Notes under the pieces: generated by a model
Told to the model about the DNA's origin: nothing
The model's database searches: none
The model's input: the letters and a program-made list of their open reading frames with translations, nothing else
Position numbers and translations under genes: made by a program
Part shown: positions 5 through 38,631 of the stretch, piece after piece
Position numbering within the stretch: the first letter of the stretch is position 1
How the letters are laid out: every line of letters starts with the position of its first letter
NCBI RefSeq assembly: GCF_009617755.1
Contig: NZ_BGZH01000005.1
Coordinates: 110,086-174,085 of the forward strand
Direction: 5' to 3'
DNA length: 64,000 nt
Origin: Marinobacter salsuginis
GTDB taxonomy: Bacteria > Pseudomonadota > Gammaproteobacteria > Pseudomonadales > Oleiphilaceae

Positions 5-811
5 ATGCGGGTAGTATCAATCAGCGTCAATGGCCTCGCCCAGGCTGTTGAAAAAGGCTTTTTCGACTGGCTGGCAGAGCAGGACGCTGACGTGGTCTGT
101 GTCCAGGATCACCGCATGCGGGCCTACGAGATTGAAGACTACAACCTGATTCCGGAAGGGTACGAAGCCTATTTCATTGATGGCGAAAAAAACGAGGATG
201 GCGGTGTCGGTATTTACACCCGCCATTTCCCGAAAGCCATCATGTACGGGTTCGCCAATGAACAGGCGGATCGCGAAGGCCGGTTCATTCAGGCCGATTT
301 TGACAAGGTGTCTGTCGCCTGCGTGCTCGCGCCCTGCGCCCTTGGCCGCGAAGACGAGCTGATCGGCGAGGACGACCTCACGGTGCTGGATCACAAGGAC
401 GAGTTCATGGAGTCCTTCGGCCTACACATGCAGAAAACACTGCGCAAGCGTCGGCAGTTCATTTTCTGCGCCAACCTCCAGACCGCCCATCACGTAACCG
501 ATGCCAGCCCGCTATACCACAAGCTGGACTTCTCCGGCTTCCTGCCCCACGAGCGTGCATGGTTGGATCGCCTGTTTGACGAAATGGGCTGCGTCGACGG
601 TTTCCGTGAGATCAACAAACAGAGCAACCAATTCACCTGGTGGCCCGAGCAGGCCGAGGGTTCCCGCAGGAATGCCGGCATTCGTGTGGATTACCAGCTA
701 CTGACACCTGGCATCCGCAAGACCATCGAGGACGGCTGGATCGACGATTCAACACGCTTCTCCGATCACGCCCCGGTGATCATGGATTACGACATAGAAA
801 TCGGCTTCTGA
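5..811 (+). CDS. crc: Crc-like catabolite repression control protein (exonuclease III fold)
   Basis: 268 residues of the exonuclease III/endonuclease-phosphatase fold, about the length of Pseudomonas Crc (259 aa). Key nuclease positions are changed: the catalytic Glu of the LQE motif is Asp35 (VQDHR), and the GDxN motif appears as CANLQTAH with Asn157 and Gln159 in place of the catalytic Asp and Asn. The terminal SDHAP motif is kept. Pseudomonas Crc is likewise nuclease-dead and works with Hfq to block translation of catabolic mRNAs. It sits tail to tail with rph, the neighbour crc has in Pseudomonas. The ATG lies five bases from the window edge, so its ribosome site cannot be judged. A distant active exonuclease is the alternative, but the lost residues argue against it. 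Confidence 0.82.
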   Translation: MRVVSISVNGLAQAVEKGFFDWLAEQDADVVCVQDHRMRAYEIEDYNLIPEGYEAYFIDGEKNEDGGVGIYTRHFPKAIMYGFANEQADREGRFIQADFDKVSVACVLAPCALGREDELIGEDDLTVLDHKDEFMESFGLHMQKTLRKRRQFIFCANLQTAHHVTDASPLYHKLDFSGFLPHERAWLDRLFDEMGCVDGFREINKQSNQFTWWPEQAEGSRRNAGIRVDYQLLTPGIRKTIEDGWIDDSTRFSDHAPVIMDYDIEIGF

Positions 812-31558: not shown

Positions 31559-32056
31559 TTAAGGGTAATCCGCCGGCGGAAGCTTGCGCAAGCCGTTGTC
31601 GGGGCATTGGCTGCGCAGCTTGGAAATGGCGGTGCCATCCGGCAGAGCGAGGTCGGCCTTCAGGTCCATTAGGGGTTGGAGCGCAAAGTCGCGGTTCCGT
31701 AACTCTCGATGAGGAATGGTGAGGCGATCATCGTCGAGTACCTGGTTGCCGAACAGCAGTATGTCCAGATCGAGCGTGCGGGGCCCCCAGTGCCGAAGCC
31801 GCTCCCGGCCGTGCTTGTGTTCAATTTCCTGCAGTTCGTCAAGAAGCTGGTGTGGCGCCAGGGATGTCCTTAACCACGCGGCCCCATTAACAAAGTCAGG
31901 CTGGTCCTGGGGCCCCACCGGGCGGCTGGCATAAAAGGGCGATTGGGCCACCAGAACCGTCTCCGGTAGGTTAGCCAGGGCAGAGACTGCCCGGGCCAGT
32001 TGGGCTGCAGGGTCTTTCAGATTGCTGCCAAGACCGATAAAGACGTCTGTCATCAT
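31559..32056 (-). CDS. folK: 6-hydroxymethyl-7,8-dihydropterin pyrophosphokinase
   Basis: 165 residues starting at 32056 ([16 protein letters not shown]). The start codon overlaps the pcnB stop as TAATG. The second ATG at 32053 is also possible. This is the canonical enzyme, transferring pyrophosphate from ATP to hydroxymethyl-dihydropterin: [17 protein letters not shown] and [17 protein letters not shown] are textbook HPPK. Its place between pcnB and panB is the conserved position of folK in gammaproteobacteria. Confidence 0.95.
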
Positions 32057-33420
32057 TACTGGGCGGGGCGTTTGACCGGTTTGCGGCGACGCCGACGCTT
32101 TTTGGGCGCATCGCTGCTTAATTGTGACAGCATCCGTTCTTGGCCACGTTCGTCTTCTTGCTGGAACTCGGTCCACCATTGGCCCAGCCCCGGTTCAATC
32201 TCGCCCGACGCCTCTCTAACCAGCAGGAAATCGTAAGCCGCGCGAAACCGCGGGTGGCTCATGGTGGCAAAAGCCCGCTTGCCCTGGCGCCGGGGCAGGC
32301 GCATCTGTAGTTCCCAGATTTCCTTCATGGGGCCGGAGAAGCGCTTGGGAATCGATGTCGCCTGAACCTGGCGGCCAATCACCTTGCCAATGGCACCGTG
32401 CAGGGCGGGCTGGACCGGGTCACCGTTATCCTGCCTGCGGTGCCATTCTGCCTGCAGCGCAGGCCAGAGCATGGCGGCAAAGAGGAAATAGGGCGTGACC
32501 GACTTGCCCTGGGCAATCCGGGCATCGGTGTTTCTCAGGGCCTGGCGAATAAGCTCGTCCGGCTCTCCGGCCTGAATGGCTCTGACCGTCTCCGGAAACA
32601 GGGGCTCCAGCAGGTTGTAACGGGTCAGTAGATCGTAAGTGGCTTCACCGTGGCCTGCGGAGAACAGTTTGAGTACTTCATCAAACAGGCGCGCGGGCGG
32701 GATATGGGTTAACAGAGGGGCTAACTCACCGATTGGCGCTTCGGTTTCCGGTTCAATATCGAAGCCCAGTTTGGCGGCAAAGCGAATAGCACGAAGCATA
32801 CGCACCGGGTCTTCCCGGTAGCGGGTTTCCGGGTCGCCAATCAGACGCAGTTGCCGGTTGCGCAGATCTTCGATGCCGTTGGCAAAGTCGATAACGGTGA
32901 AGTCGCGGATGCAGTAGTATAGGGCATTGACGGTAAAGTCGCGCCGCAGGGCATCCTCTTCCTGGTTGCCGTAGACATTGTCGCGCAGCAGCAGACCGTG
33001 TTCATTGGTCCTGCGATCGTCATCATCGGTGTCGGTATCCGCTTCCGTGGCGTTGCCCCGGAAGGTCGTTACCTCAATCACCTCGCGGCCAAACACCACG
33101 TGGACAATCCGGAACCGGCGTCCGATCAGCCGGGAATTGCGGAACAGGTCGTGAACTTCCTCCGGCGTGGCATTGGTGGCAATGTCGAAATCCTTGGGCT
33201 TTCCACCCAGCAGGATATCCCTGACGCCGCCGCCTACAAGGTAGGCTTCATAGCCCGATTTGTTCAGACGATGCAGGACTTTCTTTGCAGGCTCGCTGAT
33301 CACCGAGCGTGAGACATTGTGTTGGTCCCGGGGAATTTCCCGTCGCTGGTAGGTGCGGGCTTTCTTCTTTCCGTTGCCGGGCATAAAGGAACGGAGTTTT
33401 TCGACGAGTCGTTTAGGCAT
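32056..33420 (-). CDS. pcnB: Poly(A) polymerase I
   Basis: 454-residue nucleotidyltransferase that adds 3' poly(A) tails and speeds RNA decay. The catalytic block is LVGGGVRDILLGGKPKDFDIAT. The IGRRFRIVHVVFGREVIEV segment marks poly(A) polymerases as distinct from CCA-adding enzymes. The C terminus is very basic (KKRRRRRKPVKRP), as usual. It follows the CrcZ-type RNA, exactly as in Pseudomonas. No strong ribosome site is seen before the ATG, only CGGA. Confidence 0.95.
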   Translation of the reverse strand: MPKRLVEKLRSFMPGNGKKKARTYQRREIPRDQHNVSRSVISEPAKKVLHRLNKSGYEAYLVGGGVRDILLGGKPKDFDIATNATPEEVHDLFRNSRLIGRRFRIVHVVFGREVIEVTTFRGNATEADTDTDDDDRRTNEHGLLLRDNVYGNQEEDALRRDFTVNALYYCIRDFTVIDFANGIEDLRNRQLRLIGDPETRYREDPVRMLRAIRFAAKLGFDIEPETEAPIGELAPLLTHIPPARLFDEVLKLFSAGHGEATYDLLTRYNLLEPLFPETVRAIQAGEPDELIRQALRNTDARIAQGKSVTPYFLFAAMLWPALQAEWHRRQDNGDPVQPALHGAIGKVIGRQVQATSIPKRFSGPMKEIWELQMRLPRRQGKRAFATMSHPRFRAAYDFLLVREASGEIEPGLGQWWTEFQQEDERGQERMLSQLSSDAPKKRRRRRKPVKRPAQ

Positions 33421-33513: not shown

Positions 33514-33550
33514 GAAAATCAAAAGGCGGATCCGTTTTCACGAATCCGCC
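33514..33550 (-). terminator. Intrinsic terminator of the CrcZ-type RNA
   Basis: GGCGGATCCG (33525-33534) pairs with CGAATCCGCC (33541-33550), with one mismatch-like wobble. On the minus strand it is followed by TTTTGATTTT. It gives the RNA a defined 3' end and leaves about 93 bases to pcnB. Confidence 0.88.
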
Positions 33551-33902
33551 CTCAAAGCGTTGACGATCTGCATTGTTTTTGTTTTTGCCGGGATTTTTCT
33601 TGGTTTTTGTACCCCACTGCATATCCCCATTGAGGGGCATCTCAGCAGCGCAAACGGAAAGCTTTGAATACACAGAGCGGTCAGAGACATCGGGCGGGTC
33701 TGGGGTAGCTGCAGCGTCACCTCAAAGGCGATTCTTCTCTACATCTACAACTCGCACGTGCCGTGGGACCACTAAAAAGCAAAGTACCCAAAACACTCAG
33801 TTCGCTCACGTTCTGTTGTTGTTTTTGTTACCGAACGTTTCCCGCAGCTTTTTGTTCTTGTTGTTGGCGCTGCTTTGTCACTCTTGTTTTTGTTGTTGTG
33901 CG
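33514..33902 (-). ncRNA. crcZ: CrcZ-type small RNA sequestering Hfq/Crc
   Basis: About 390 nt, close to the 407 nt of P. aeruginosa CrcZ. It lies in the same place (cbrB-crcZ-pcnB), is preceded by a sigma-54 promoter and ends at an intrinsic terminator. Five A-rich runs of the AAnAAnAA type lie in it: 33883-33899, 33848-33866, 33812-33829, 33592-33611 and 33572-33589. An example is AACAACAAAAACAA on the minus strand, right at the 5' end. Such runs bind Hfq with Crc and so relieve repression of catabolic mRNAs. It has no credible open reading frame. Length and ends are inferred from sequence. Confidence 0.88.
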
Positions 33903-33912
33903 CCAAATAGAT

Positions 33913-33928
33913 TGCAGTCCGTGTGCCA
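33913..33928 (-). promoter_or_regulatory. Sigma-54 promoter of the CrcZ-type RNA
   Basis: On the minus strand TGGCACACGGACTGCA matches the sigma-54 pattern TGGCAC-N5-TTGCA except for one base, with GG and GC 12 bases apart as needed. It predicts a start near 33902. The adjacent activator gene cbrB encodes a sigma-54-dependent regulator. Confidence 0.88.
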
Positions 33929-33979
33929 GGTTTTGAATGTTCTTTATTAACAGTGCCTTACGATTTTGTAGGCCATAAG

Positions 33980-34061
33980 TGTTACCCCGTATTCAACCTA
34001 AGTGTTACCCAGATCACGTTACTTTAGTGAGGAGTGTTACCGACAGGAACATGGGGTAACA
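33980..34061 (-). promoter_or_regulatory. CbrB-type upstream activating sites
   Basis: Four TGTTAC/GTAACA units precede the sigma-54 promoter: TGTTACCC at 33980-33987, TGTTACCC at 34003-34010, and an inverted pair TGTTAC (34035-34040) with GTAACA (34056-34061), 15 bases apart. Pseudomonas CbrB recognises TGTTAC and GTAACA half-sites separated by about 14 bases. The cluster is 50-150 bases upstream of the start, as expected for enhancer sites. Confidence 0.75.
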
Positions 34062-34090: not shown

Positions 34091-35494
34091 TCAGTTGCCC
34101 GAGGATTTTTTCCGGGGGATGCCGAGCCGCTGCCGACGTTCCCAGAGGGATTTTCGGCTGATGCCCAATTTTTGAGCCAGCTCTGTCTCGCTCATGCGAT
34201 CCTGGTTCTCCAGGACAAAATGCTGGAAGTAGTCCTCCAAAGAGAGATCGTTGGAGGAATCCACCTCGCGGGTGTGAGTCTGCTCGTTGTTGCCTTCCAC
34301 GAGGGTCTCAGGGATGTATTCGTCGTTGCCTTCGCTATCAAGGTCCAGCAATGACGGCGTAATCACATCCCCGTCGCAGAGGATGGTGGCGCGCTCAATG
34401 GCGTTTTCCAGCTCCCGTACGTTACCCGGCCAGCGATGGCGTTCCAGGGCGCGCATGGCCTCGGGGCTGAGGTTGAGATCGGGTTTGCCCATTCTCTCCC
34501 CCTGGCGTTTGAGGAAGCGGCGAGCCAGTCCCAGAATATCGCTCTGGCGCTCGCGTAAAGGCGGTATCCGGATCTGCATAACATTCAAACGGTAATACAG
34601 GTCTTCCCGGAATTCCCCGGTTCGGGTCATGGCCTTCAGGTTGCGATGGGTGGCCGCAATCATTCGCACATTTACGGTGCGGCTCTGGGTTGAACCCACT
34701 TTCCGGATCTCGCTCTCCTGCAGCACGCGAAGCAGGCGGGCCTGGGCTTCAGCCGGCAGTTCGCCGATCTCGTCCAGAAACAGGCTACCGCCATCAGCCG
34801 CCTCAATCAGACCCGTTCTTGCCGAAACCGCACCGGTGAAGGCGCCTTTCTCATGGCCGAACAGTTCCGATTCAATCAGGCTTTCCGGGATGGCCGCGCA
34901 GTTTACCGAAATCAGCGGTTTCGCGGCGCGGGGGCTCAGCAGATGCAGGGCGCGCGCGGCCAACTCTTTGCCGGTACCGGATTCGCCCTGGATCAGTACG
35001 GTGGTTTCTGTCGGAGCCACCTTCCGGATCAGGGTAAATACCCTCTGCATAGGCTCGCACTGGCCGAACATGATATTGGCCGGGTCGCTACTCTCGGGCG
35101 TTTCCGAGGGTGCCGCCGAGTCATCACCCGCATTGCGGGCAGAGGGCTGGCGGGCCAGGATATTCTCCACCGCAGCAAGCATTTCATCATGGTCGAACGG
35201 TTTTGCGATGTACTCAACGGCCCCCATTTTCATGGAATCCACGGCTGACCGGAGGCTGGCATAGCTGGTCATGATCAGCACCGGTGTATTGGGTGCGCGG
35301 TTGATCAGTTCCGTGCCTGCTGCTCCTGGCAAGCGCAGATCCGATATGATCAGGTCAAACTGATCCGGCTCGTGGTGCTGTTCGGCTTCCTCCACGGAAG
35401 CCGCATCGGCGACTTCATAGCCGGCATGCAGCAGCAGCTTGCGAACTGCCGAGCGAATAATGTCTTCGTCTTCCACGATCAGAATGCGAGGCAT
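34091..35494 (-). CDS. cbrB: Sigma-54-dependent response regulator CbrB
   Basis: 467 residues from [12 protein letters not shown] (35494). A TTG-started extension of 12 codons is less likely. The receiver domain has a phospho-acceptor at Asp52 (IISDLRLPG). The AAA+ domain has Walker A GESGTGKE and the sigma-54 contact loop GAFTGA. A Fis-type helix-turn-helix ends the protein ([20 protein letters not shown]). It is 7 bases downstream of cbrA and upstream of the CrcZ-type RNA it should activate. NtrC or another family member is the formal alternative, but context makes CbrB. Confidence 0.94.
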
Positions 35495-35501
35495 AGGAGT
35501 C

Positions 35502-38465
35502 TCAAGACCTTTGGTTCTGGCTGATGGCAATGTTGCCGGTTTCCGGTTCGTAGGCTGGCAATCTCAGCCTCACACAGGTTCCCCGGCCAGTGTCGGCGTC
35601 CGCCGGGCTGTCTACCTGAACGTTGCCATAGTGCTCTTCAATAATGCTGTACACCAGCGACAGGCCAAGACCGGTTCCCTGGTTGGGGGCCTTGGTGGTG
35701 TAAAACGGCTCGAAGATATGATCGAGCTGATCCCCGGGGATTCCGGAGCCCTCATCAACGACTTCGATGATAGCGGAGTAGCCATCGCCCTTTCCACTGA
35801 CCCGGATGGTGCCTCCTTCGGGCGAGGCATCCCGGGCGTTGGCAAGAAGGTTAACAAACACCTGCACCAGGCGCTGTTCATCGCCCAGCACCTGCAAGGA
35901 GGGCGGGCAGTCGTTGATGTAGTGAATGCCCAGGCCCTTGTCGCTCAGGGAGAGCAGGTTGATAGACTCTTCCACGCAACGATGTATCGTCACCGGTTCG
36001 TACCGGTTGGCCTGGGCGTGGTTGCCGGTGCGGGCAAAGTTCATCAGCGACTGCAGTATGGTGGAGATGCGCCGCGTCTGTTGCTGGATCTGGTCTGCCG
36101 TATCGAGAATATCGGGGTTATCGGTTTCCAGTTTCAGGTTCTGGGCCAGCGATGAGATGCCGGTTACCGGGTTCCCGATCTCGTGGGCGACGCCGGCCGC
36201 CAGTCTACCCACCGACGCCAACCGCTCGCTGTGCATCAGCTCATCTTCCAGCAGTCGGGTTTCGGTCTGGTCTTCCACCAGGATGATGCTGCCGCCTTCG
36301 GTGTGGTCCGGCCCGCTCAGGGCGGCTTTGTGAAGGTTCAGCCAATGGGGCTTGCCACGCAGATCCAGCCGGTGTTTGTAGCGATGCAGGTCGGGCCCGC
36401 GGTTGAAATCCTCGAGCAGCAGATGCCAGTGCTCCGGCAGTGCCATCAGCCTGGCGCCGACCACATCATCGGCGGTAATGCCGGTGAGCGCCTCCATGGC
36501 GTGGTTCCACATCAGGATTTCACCGTCCTCGCCCACGGAGCAGGCGGGAATCGGCAGGTTTTGCAGTGTCTGGCGGTAATGTCGTCGCAGGTTGTCCAGC
36601 TCTCCGGCCAGGCCGGTAAGGCGGTTCTGGTAGTCGCCGAGGGCCCGCTCGACATAGCGAATGTCCTGGGCGGTGCCACCCTGGGCCATAGGCTTGAAGC
36701 CGAGATGGCGTTTGACCATGTCCCGGGCGACAGAGGGTCCGAGCAGACCCGACAGATTGATCTCCACCTGATCCCGCAGTCGTCTGAGCTGGTAAGGCCT
36801 GTATTCCACGTTGGGTAGCTTCAACTGGCTCAGTGCACGCTCCACTTCCCGCCGTGCGACGCCATAGCCCAAAGGCTCCGCCAGTTGCCGCACAAAATCA
36901 CTGGAGGATGTCGCCAGCAGTTCACGGCGTTGAGGGCGGGACAGCGCACCCAGCGAGCAGGCCTGGGCTGCACTGTTCTCTTCACTGGTACTGGTGCTGA
37001 GGATGGAAATCAGCGCGAACACAGTAATGTTGGCGGTCAGGCTGACGAACGTGAATATATGCCAGTTGGTGTAATCCGGTATCAGCGGCGCGTCTATCCA
37101 GGCCAGCAGATTGGCCGTATGGGAGAAGGGTAGTACCAGGGTAACCACCCAGATGGTCAAACCGACAATCAGGCCGGCAATCAGGCCGCGGCGGTTGCCC
37201 TCCGGCCAGTAAATCACGCCCAGGGCGCCCGGGAGAAGCTGCAATGTGCCTGACAGGGAAATGGCGCCGAGAATGGAAAGGTCAAGGTTCTTGCCAACGG
37301 CCTCGTGAAACAGCAATGCCAGGAAAATGATCACGGCGATGAGCAGACGTTTGATCCACTGCAGCCAGCGATAGATGTCGCCCTGGTCTTTCGGGGTTTT
37401 CAGCGGCAGGACCACGTGGTTCAGGGCCATGCCCGCCAGTGCCAGCGTGCTGACGATCATCAGGCCGCTGGCTGCGGACAGGCCGGCAATGTACATGAAC
37501 AGCGTCAGTACAGGGCTCTCCAGCGCTTGGGCAGCGCCGATAGCGAAGAACCCGGGGCCGGTGGTGACGGCCAACTCCTGCCCGCCCCACAGAATCAGGG
37601 GTACCGGCAGGCCCAGCAGCAACAGGTACAGTGGCAGGCCCCAGCTGGCCTTGGCCAGTGCCTTTGGGGAAGGGTTCTCGCTGAAGGTCATGTGATACAT
37701 GTGCGGCAGCACCAGTGCGGCGGCAAAGGACATCAGCATCAATGCCCGCCAGCTGCCGTCGTCAATGCTCAGAGTCATGGTGGTGGCTGGCGAGGTTCGG
37801 TTGTCCAGCCAACGCTCCAGACCGTTCATGCCATCGAAGACCCCGAACAGGATCACGCCCCCGAGCACCAGCAGCGCCGCCAGTTTGACCAGAGAATCAA
37901 AGGCAATGGCCAGTACCAGGCCCTGGTGGTTATCGGAATTCTGGTTACGGCGTGCTCCGAACAGCATGGCAAACAACACCACGATCATACTGAACATCAC
38001 ACTGATCAGCTTGGGAGAGGTGTCCGGCGCCAGGATACTGGCTGAGGTGGCGACGGCCTGGATCTGCATGCTCAGCAGCGCCAGTATGGCCCCGCCGGAA
38101 CACAGGGTGACCAGGGTTCCTGCCCACTGGCTCCGGTAGCGGTAGGCGAACAGGTCGGCCAGGGAGGTTAACTGATAGGCGCGGCCAATCCTCATGACCG
38201 GGTTCAGAAGTACCGGTGCCAGCAAAAAGGCGCCACTGATGCCCAGGTAGTAGGCGAGGAAGCCGTAGCCGGATTCGGCGGCCATGCCAACGGCGCCGTA
38301 GACCGCCCAGATGCCCGCGTATACCCCCAGGCTGAGCACGTAAACCAGCGGGTGGCGAACCCAGCGCCTCGGCACCATGCCCCGCTCGGTAAACCAGGCA
38401 ATGCCGAACAGCAGAATCAGGTAGAGCAGGCTGGCGAGCAGCAGACCGGAGGCACTAAAACTCAT
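35502..38465 (-). CDS. cbrA: CbrA transporter-linked sensor histidine kinase
   Basis: 987 residues (P. aeruginosa CbrA has 983). The first 500 residues form a sodium/solute-symporter-like membrane domain with about 13 helices. Then come a linker, a PAS-like domain ([20 protein letters not shown]), a HisKA domain with the H-box [11 protein letters not shown] (His near 760), and an ATPase domain ([18 protein letters not shown]). It senses carbon/nitrogen status and phosphorylates CbrB; in Pseudomonas its transporter part can take up histidine. The start ATG at 38465 lies inside the end of cbrX (11-base overlap). Confidence 0.95.
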
Positions 38466-38631
38466 TGGGGTCCCGCCGCCATTCCAGCCAGAAACCGATG
38501 GCAATCAGCCCGGCCCAGATAATGTAGGGGCTGTACCAGACGTTTCCCGGCGAAGTCCACCAGTCAAGGATGTTGGGCGAAAAGATATAGATGGCCAGTA
38601 CCAACAGGAAGACCAGACGGTAGATATACAT
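38455..38631 (-). CDS. cbrX: CbrX-like small membrane protein overlapping cbrA
   Basis: A 58-codon frame reads MYIYRLVFLLVLAIYIFSPN, then a Trp-rich middle (WWTSPGNVWYSPYIIWAG) and a charged end [11 protein letters not shown]. Two short hydrophobic helices are likely. Its last codons overlap the cbrA start (ATGAGTTTTAG), so cbrA translation is probably coupled to it. A small gene cbrX in the same place is known in Pseudomonas. No strong ribosome site precedes the ATG. The function of the peptide itself is unknown. Confidence 0.82.
   Translation of the reverse strand: MYIYRLVFLLVLAIYIFSPNILDWWTSPGNVWYSPYIIWAGLIAIGFWLEWRRDPNEF

Follow-up and report, generated by a model that had tools for sequence, protein, structure and literature searches.

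A probable CrcZ-type small RNA in the cbrB–pcnB gap of Marinobacter salsuginis

The gap between cbrB and pcnB in M. salsuginis very probably encodes an orthologue of CrcZ, the Hfq/Crc decoy RNA of Pseudomonas. Support comes from the gene order, from a sigma-54 promoter with CbrB-type activator sites ahead of it, from a structured RNA that bears five A-rich sites and ends in a terminator, and from CbrA, CbrB, Crc and Hfq all being encoded in the genome. By its sequence the RNA is most likely a decoy that acts on Hfq/Crc. The stretch of DNA analysed, 64,000 nt in length, is referred to as the window, and its relevant features are listed below.

5–811, plus strand: crc, partner of Hfq, flanked by open reading frames read as pyrE and rph
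32056–33420, minus strand: pcnB, the downstream neighbour (TIGR01942, 528.3 bits)
33515–33902, minus strand: CrcZ-type small RNA, putative transcript of about 388 nt, its 5′ end placed from the sigma-54 site
33522–33553, minus strand: intrinsic terminator, a 14-pair stem with a T-rich tail (helix 14 of the predicted structure)
33573–33586, minus strand: A-rich motif 5, kept in 34/34 Marinobacter sequences
33594–33601, minus strand: A-rich motif 4 (8 nt), in a predicted hairpin loop, kept in 32/34
33816–33829, minus strand: A-rich motif 3, in a predicted hairpin loop (stem columns 71–76/96–101, with compensatory changes), kept in 34/34
33849–33865, minus strand: A-rich motif 2, in a predicted hairpin loop (stem columns 34–38/59–63), kept in 33/34
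33884–33897, minus strand: A-rich motif 1, kept in 34/34 Marinobacter sequences
33914–33928, minus strand: sigma-54 promoter TGGCACACGGACTGC, a sequence match with GG and GC in place
33948–33960, plus strand: IHF-like site, between the activator sites and the promoter
33980–33985, minus strand: CbrB-type subsite R, GTAACA, 57 nt ahead of the sigma-54 site
34003–34008, minus strand: CbrB-type subsite R, GTAACA, 80 nt ahead
34035–34040, minus strand: CbrB-type subsite R, GTAACA, 112 nt ahead
34056–34061, minus strand: CbrB-type subsite F, TGTTAC, 133 nt ahead
34091–35494, minus strand: cbrB, sigma-54 activator/response regulator, named by its neighbours
35502–38462, minus strand: cbrA, SLC5-type sensor kinase
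38455–38631, minus strand: cbrX-like small open reading frame of 58 aa, overlapping the cbrA start, named by position

The minus strand carries, in order, the cbrX-like reading frame, cbrA, cbrB, a gap of 670 nt and pcnB, followed by reading frames read as folK, panB, panC and pgi. The CrcZ-type RNA is thus located between cbrB and pcnB and on their strand. The closest named relative of CbrA is that of M. flavimaris (97%). CbrB gives NtrC-type matches that lie under their cut-offs, and NCBIfam holds no model for CbrB itself. The 58-aa reading frame is hydrophobic and overlaps the cbrA start as does cbrX of P. putida, and therefore the whole cbrX-cbrA-cbrB-crcZ-pcnB block seems to be kept; cbrX has been described elsewhere (PMC8871633, PMC9100948).

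If the circuit works as proposed, CbrA would phosphorylate CbrB when preferred carbon is low, and CbrB, with DNA bending by IHF, would allow sigma-54 RNA polymerase to drive transcription from 33928. The RNA would then soak up Hfq once a good carbon source runs out.

The promoter TGGCACACGGACTGC has two mismatches to the longer sigma-54 consensus. The IHF-like site, scored against the IHF consensus, has at most one mismatch in all 33 Marinobacter loci and the same position in 32 of them, a degree of match that about 10% of shuffles reach. Distances of the four activator hexamers to the promoter (F 133, R 112, R 80, R 57) are nearly fixed across these 33 loci. The F-R-R-R set is found in 27 of them and the remaining six are off by one or two hexamers; the exact R hexamer at 57 nt is absent in four. 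The GG-N10-GC signature of sigma-54 promoters and the F and R sequences of the CbrB subsites are as described in PMC6296734, where CbrB of P. putida is reported to act via F1, R1 and R2 subsites of the same sequence upstream of crcZ, assisted by IHF.

How unusual this arrangement is was gauged with a composite unit, defined as a sigma-54 site with at most two mismatches, a first A-run of at least 11 nt within 45 nt of it, and at least two such runs in 450 nt. The unit occurs once in the 64-kb window, both strands counted. A further 800 kb of this genome, likewise searched on both strands, contains none despite 155 sigma-54-like sites of equal quality. In 20,000 dinucleotide-shuffled versions of the gap the unit never appears, and the four activator hexamers are likewise never reached. 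Single components are weaker alone: five A-runs of at least 8 nt arise in 70/20,000 shuffles, and one sigma-54 site in 895/20,000. The window has four A-runs of at least 11 nt on its two strands, all within the cbrB–pcnB gap. The enhancer units, sigma-54 promoter, five A-rich motifs and terminator named in the preliminary description are present, in that order and at the coordinates given there.

A covariance-model search, which had been proposed as a check, supports the assignment in part. The match to the Rfam CrcZ model RF01675 (33492–33890; 51.6 bits, E 2.4e-12 with 901 bases searched) covers the full length of the model and is far above chance, but it falls short of the gathering score of 95, so the RNA is not a curated RF01675 member. 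Rfam matches to L20-leader (E 0.038) and MAT2A (E 0.21) were taken as chance or as likeness to terminators.

The RNA was aligned in 34 Marinobacter sequences, the other 33 being 75–97% identical to this one. The RNA has five A-rich, Hfq-type motifs in about 388 nt, and each keeps its alignment column, rounded to ten, in 32–34 of the 34 sequences. Three lie in predicted hairpin loops and two outside those hairpins. RNAalifold predicts 86 pairs, 24 of which have compensatory changes on both sides. Double-change cells number 70 vs 18.2 in shuffles, and 97.6% of cells are paired, compared with 35–43% for slid pairings. None of 500 shuffles attains any of five covariation measures, a control that overstates significance for related sequences, and the pairs were counted in the very alignment that served to predict the structure. 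The longest helix, of 20 pairs, shows no double change. The single sequence folds better than its own shuffles (z-score –3.07). A protein-coding reading of the RNA was rejected, each open reading frame of at least 10 aa being intact in at most 18 of the 34 sequences.

Azotobacter belongs to the Pseudomonadaceae and Marinobacter does not. The Azotobacter CrcZ/CrcY pair provides an example of the same circuit beyond the genus Pseudomonas (PMC6292655). With Pseudomonas CrcZ (RF01675) the Marinobacter RNA shares its place between cbrB and pcnB, as in named Pseudomonas loci, as well as a sigma-54 promoter, F and R CbrB subsites, a transcript of about 400 nt that carries A-rich sites, a terminator and the full-length model match. 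The CrcZ-type reading of the preliminary description agrees with the synteny, the promoter and its activator sites, the A-rich motifs, the length and terminator of the RNA, its covariation, the Rfam match below the cut-off, and the presence of Crc, Hfq, CbrA and CbrB in the genome. There are also differences. The A-rich sites number five, whereas P. aeruginosa CrcZ has six (PMC4063720), and the hexamers are 133, 112, 80 and 57 nt from the promoter, compared with 122–124 nt for F and 102–104 nt for R in four loci of family f20, taken as Pseudomonas by their scores. CrcY and CrcX of Pseudomonas are decoys of the same type under CbrB (PMC8871633). They are second copies located elsewhere (two distant matches in five f20 genomes), while the Marinobacter genome has a single RF01675 match at E 0.001.

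A copy in Marinobacter had been presented as an extension of a system known mainly from the Pseudomonadaceae. The sequence evidence agrees with the extension, but its spread was understated, as the layout is found in 19 of the 24 families of the order that were sampled. Within the family, RF01675 has a match in 92/101 genomes, and the gathering score is reached in 0/101. Among the nine genomes with no match, pcnB was found in six; the composite unit is present in three of these, and the other three comprise one with a weaker sigma-54 site and two loci at contig edges or present as a fragment. In the order, 60/293 genomes have a match, 14 of them above the cut-off, and none was found in 14 control genomes. 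Several of the weak order-wide matches are directly upstream of pcnB, but not all: that of G330 is not at pcnB and that of G349 is about 1.4 kb upstream. The layout was scored instead of the Rfam model because the model matched only two of eight loci with layout units at E 0.1.

Scored in this way, a layout unit is present in 92 of 103 loci upstream of pcnB, a set that includes loci brought in by the Rfam search and for which the first A-run was allowed up to 60 nt from the promoter. The 24 families are from 47 family labels of the order; in f7, f26, f43, f45 and f46 no unit was found at the sampled loci upstream of pcnB. In a set of 40 loci in all, chosen family by family from pcnB places and scored with a 45-nt limit for the first A-run, the unit is found in 32: in 15 of 16 whose genome has an RF01675 match and in 17 of 24 whose genome has none. 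Among the eight loci with no unit, L098 is at a contig edge and L069 shows no cbrB; in L067, L068, L077, L093, L094 and L099, A-rich runs and TGTTAC/GTAACA hexamers are present while a sigma-54 site of the required quality is absent. Four of the latter (L067, L068, L093 and L094, families f7 and f43) perhaps use another promoter type. Named loci give a similar picture. Among 80 such loci, mostly Pseudomonas by title and 13 from Marinobacter, cbrB adjoins pcnB in 75, and the unit is in the gap in 74 of the 75, L236 being the exception; none of the 75 has a unit elsewhere on that strand.

CbrA-like genes were found in 39/369 genomes of a class sample, four of the 39 within the order. DNA downstream of these genes was taken for 33 loci, 32 outside the order and one (f35) inside it; left out were three genomes of the order and G439, G573 and G738, where the match is partial or near a contig start. 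On the cbrA strand of these loci, which span 2.2–4.4 kb (L122 just 237 nt), cbrB is present in 32/33, and the composite unit and pcnB in 0/33 each. Outside the order the unit is found in 0/32 such loci, and within it f35 lacks a unit after its cbrB (L129). Five loci outside the order (L118, L121, L124, L137 and L138) have, after cbrB, a sigma-54-like site preceded by TGTTAC or GTAACA; they lack A-runs of 11 nt and may represent a more ancient CbrB target. The cbrA loci of a Pantoea record (L195) and a Pedobacter record (L237), 52% and 48% identical to this CbrA, are perhaps from misnamed or mixed assemblies.

Variants of the locus are also found. Two units occupy a single cbrB–pcnB gap in L079, L085, L086, L100 and Bacterioplanes (L177, apparently the same genome as L086), and three units do so in L087 and Bermanella (L233). 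In family f28, genus g69, a Crc orthologue was not found in any of six sampled genomes, the best matches being none or 24–38% identical over the whole protein or a part of it, so that a more diverged Crc is possible; all six (L078, L241, L242, L243, L245 and L246) hold the unit. CbrA was not found in any of three genomes of family f36, genus g51, where matches correspond to the transporter part of other proteins. Two of these, G270 and G135, retain a unit ahead of pcnB, accompanied by no exact activator hexamer in the first and by one in the second; G347 keeps A-rich runs and has no sigma-54 site of the set quality. The f36 g51 loci with the unit upstream of pcnB are L083 and L239, and the upstream gene of L083 reads as gluQ.

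Other explanations of the Marinobacter RNA can be weighed. The unit is on the pcnB strand and upstream of pcnB in loci where both were found, and the sigma-54 transcript might run into pcnB as a structured cis leader whose A-rich sites tune that gene. This appears very improbable, as a strong, conserved terminator ends the RNA some 94 nt short of pcnB, a gap that holds two or three units is hard to see as one leader, and CrcZ of P. aeruginosa is a 407-nt RNA (PMC4063720). Equally improbable is a base-pairing sRNA bound by Hfq, whose A-rich sites would merely recruit Hfq while pairing sets the targets. Some highly conserved stretches are indeed not A-rich, e.g. GAGCGAACTGAGTGTTTTGGG at columns 102–122, but this stretch is predicted to pair internally (helix 4, 20 pairs, 14 of them invariant, so that the helix has no support from covariation), and the five A-rich sites hold their positions.

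A decoy that titrates Hfq alone, with Crc outside the Marinobacter circuit, is less improbable but still unlikely. The Crc encoded in the window has P. aeruginosa Crc (4jg3) as its best PDB match, with E 8.9e-70 and 42.8% identity. When compared with the residue roles given in PMC6422490, it is changed at E142 (Q), R196 (K), R230 (K), K155 (V), M156 (T), F231 (T) and R233 (E), and known Crc–Crc contacts and some RNA contacts are therefore not kept. These changed contact residues, together with the six f28 g69 genomes that have the unit and no Crc orthologue found, favour Hfq-alone titration. On the other hand, the basic, RNA-touching stretch (K135, R138, K139, R140, R141) is identical, and Crc is present in 12/12 Marinobacter genomes of the order sample at 88–100% identity. 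The genome encodes one Hfq, which closely resembles the P. aeruginosa protein but has F instead of Y at position 25; a Y25D change in P. aeruginosa Hfq abolishes CrcZ binding (PMC4063720). This F and the changed Crc residues count against the Hfq/Crc decoy reading.

Candidate targets were sought, so as not to choose genes beforehand, in the window and in 40 stretches of 20 kb each, which together make 864 kb with 745 predicted open reading frames. A-runs of at least 11 nt in the 50 nt around the predicted start, start calls being crude, are found in 10 reading frames in the sense orientation and one in antisense (p about 0.01, two-sided sign test). Adjacent intervals give sense/antisense counts of 4/3, 5/7, 1/1, 1/1 and 0/1. 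Nine of the ten sense reading frames have Pfam domains: an amidohydrolase, two solute-binding proteins, a porin, a redoxin, a pullulanase, a chemotaxis receptor, a PLP enzyme and part of a phenol hydroxylase. The tenth has no Pfam match and may be no gene. Six of the ten are catabolic or transport genes; in P. aeruginosa, genes of this class that Hfq represses have A-rich start regions (PMC4063720).

In PMC6296734 and PMC8871633, CbrAB is called exclusive to the Pseudomonadaceae; the 2022 review also terms cbrA-cbrB-crcZ unique to that family, with the order described only in Pseudomonas and Azotobacter. CbrAB outside the family has not gone wholly unnoticed, since a CbrA/CbrB homologue is listed in passing for a sulphur-oxidising gammaproteobacterium in PMC4136832. 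A full-text literature search, with most subscription journals outside its scope so that an earlier report is possible, gave no paper on CrcZ and Marinobacter or on CrcZ and Oceanospirillales. The two papers found that mention both CrcZ and Halomonas appear to treat other matters.

These data put the whole module in Marinobacter and, judged by layout, in 19 of the 24 families sampled from the order. It is rather more probable than otherwise that CrcZ is an old, order-wide fixture of the cbrB–pcnB gap and no Pseudomonas invention: its sequence would drift while promoter, activator and A-rich sites stay, with tandem multiplication in several lineages, and it would outlive Crc in f28 g69 and CbrA in f36 g51. 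If this is true, Hfq titration is the core function, and Crc and CbrAB are replaceable parts. Lineages where Crc or CbrA was not found offer natural experiments on the contribution of Crc alongside Hfq, and carbon-source choice in oil-degrading marine bacteria becomes directly testable.
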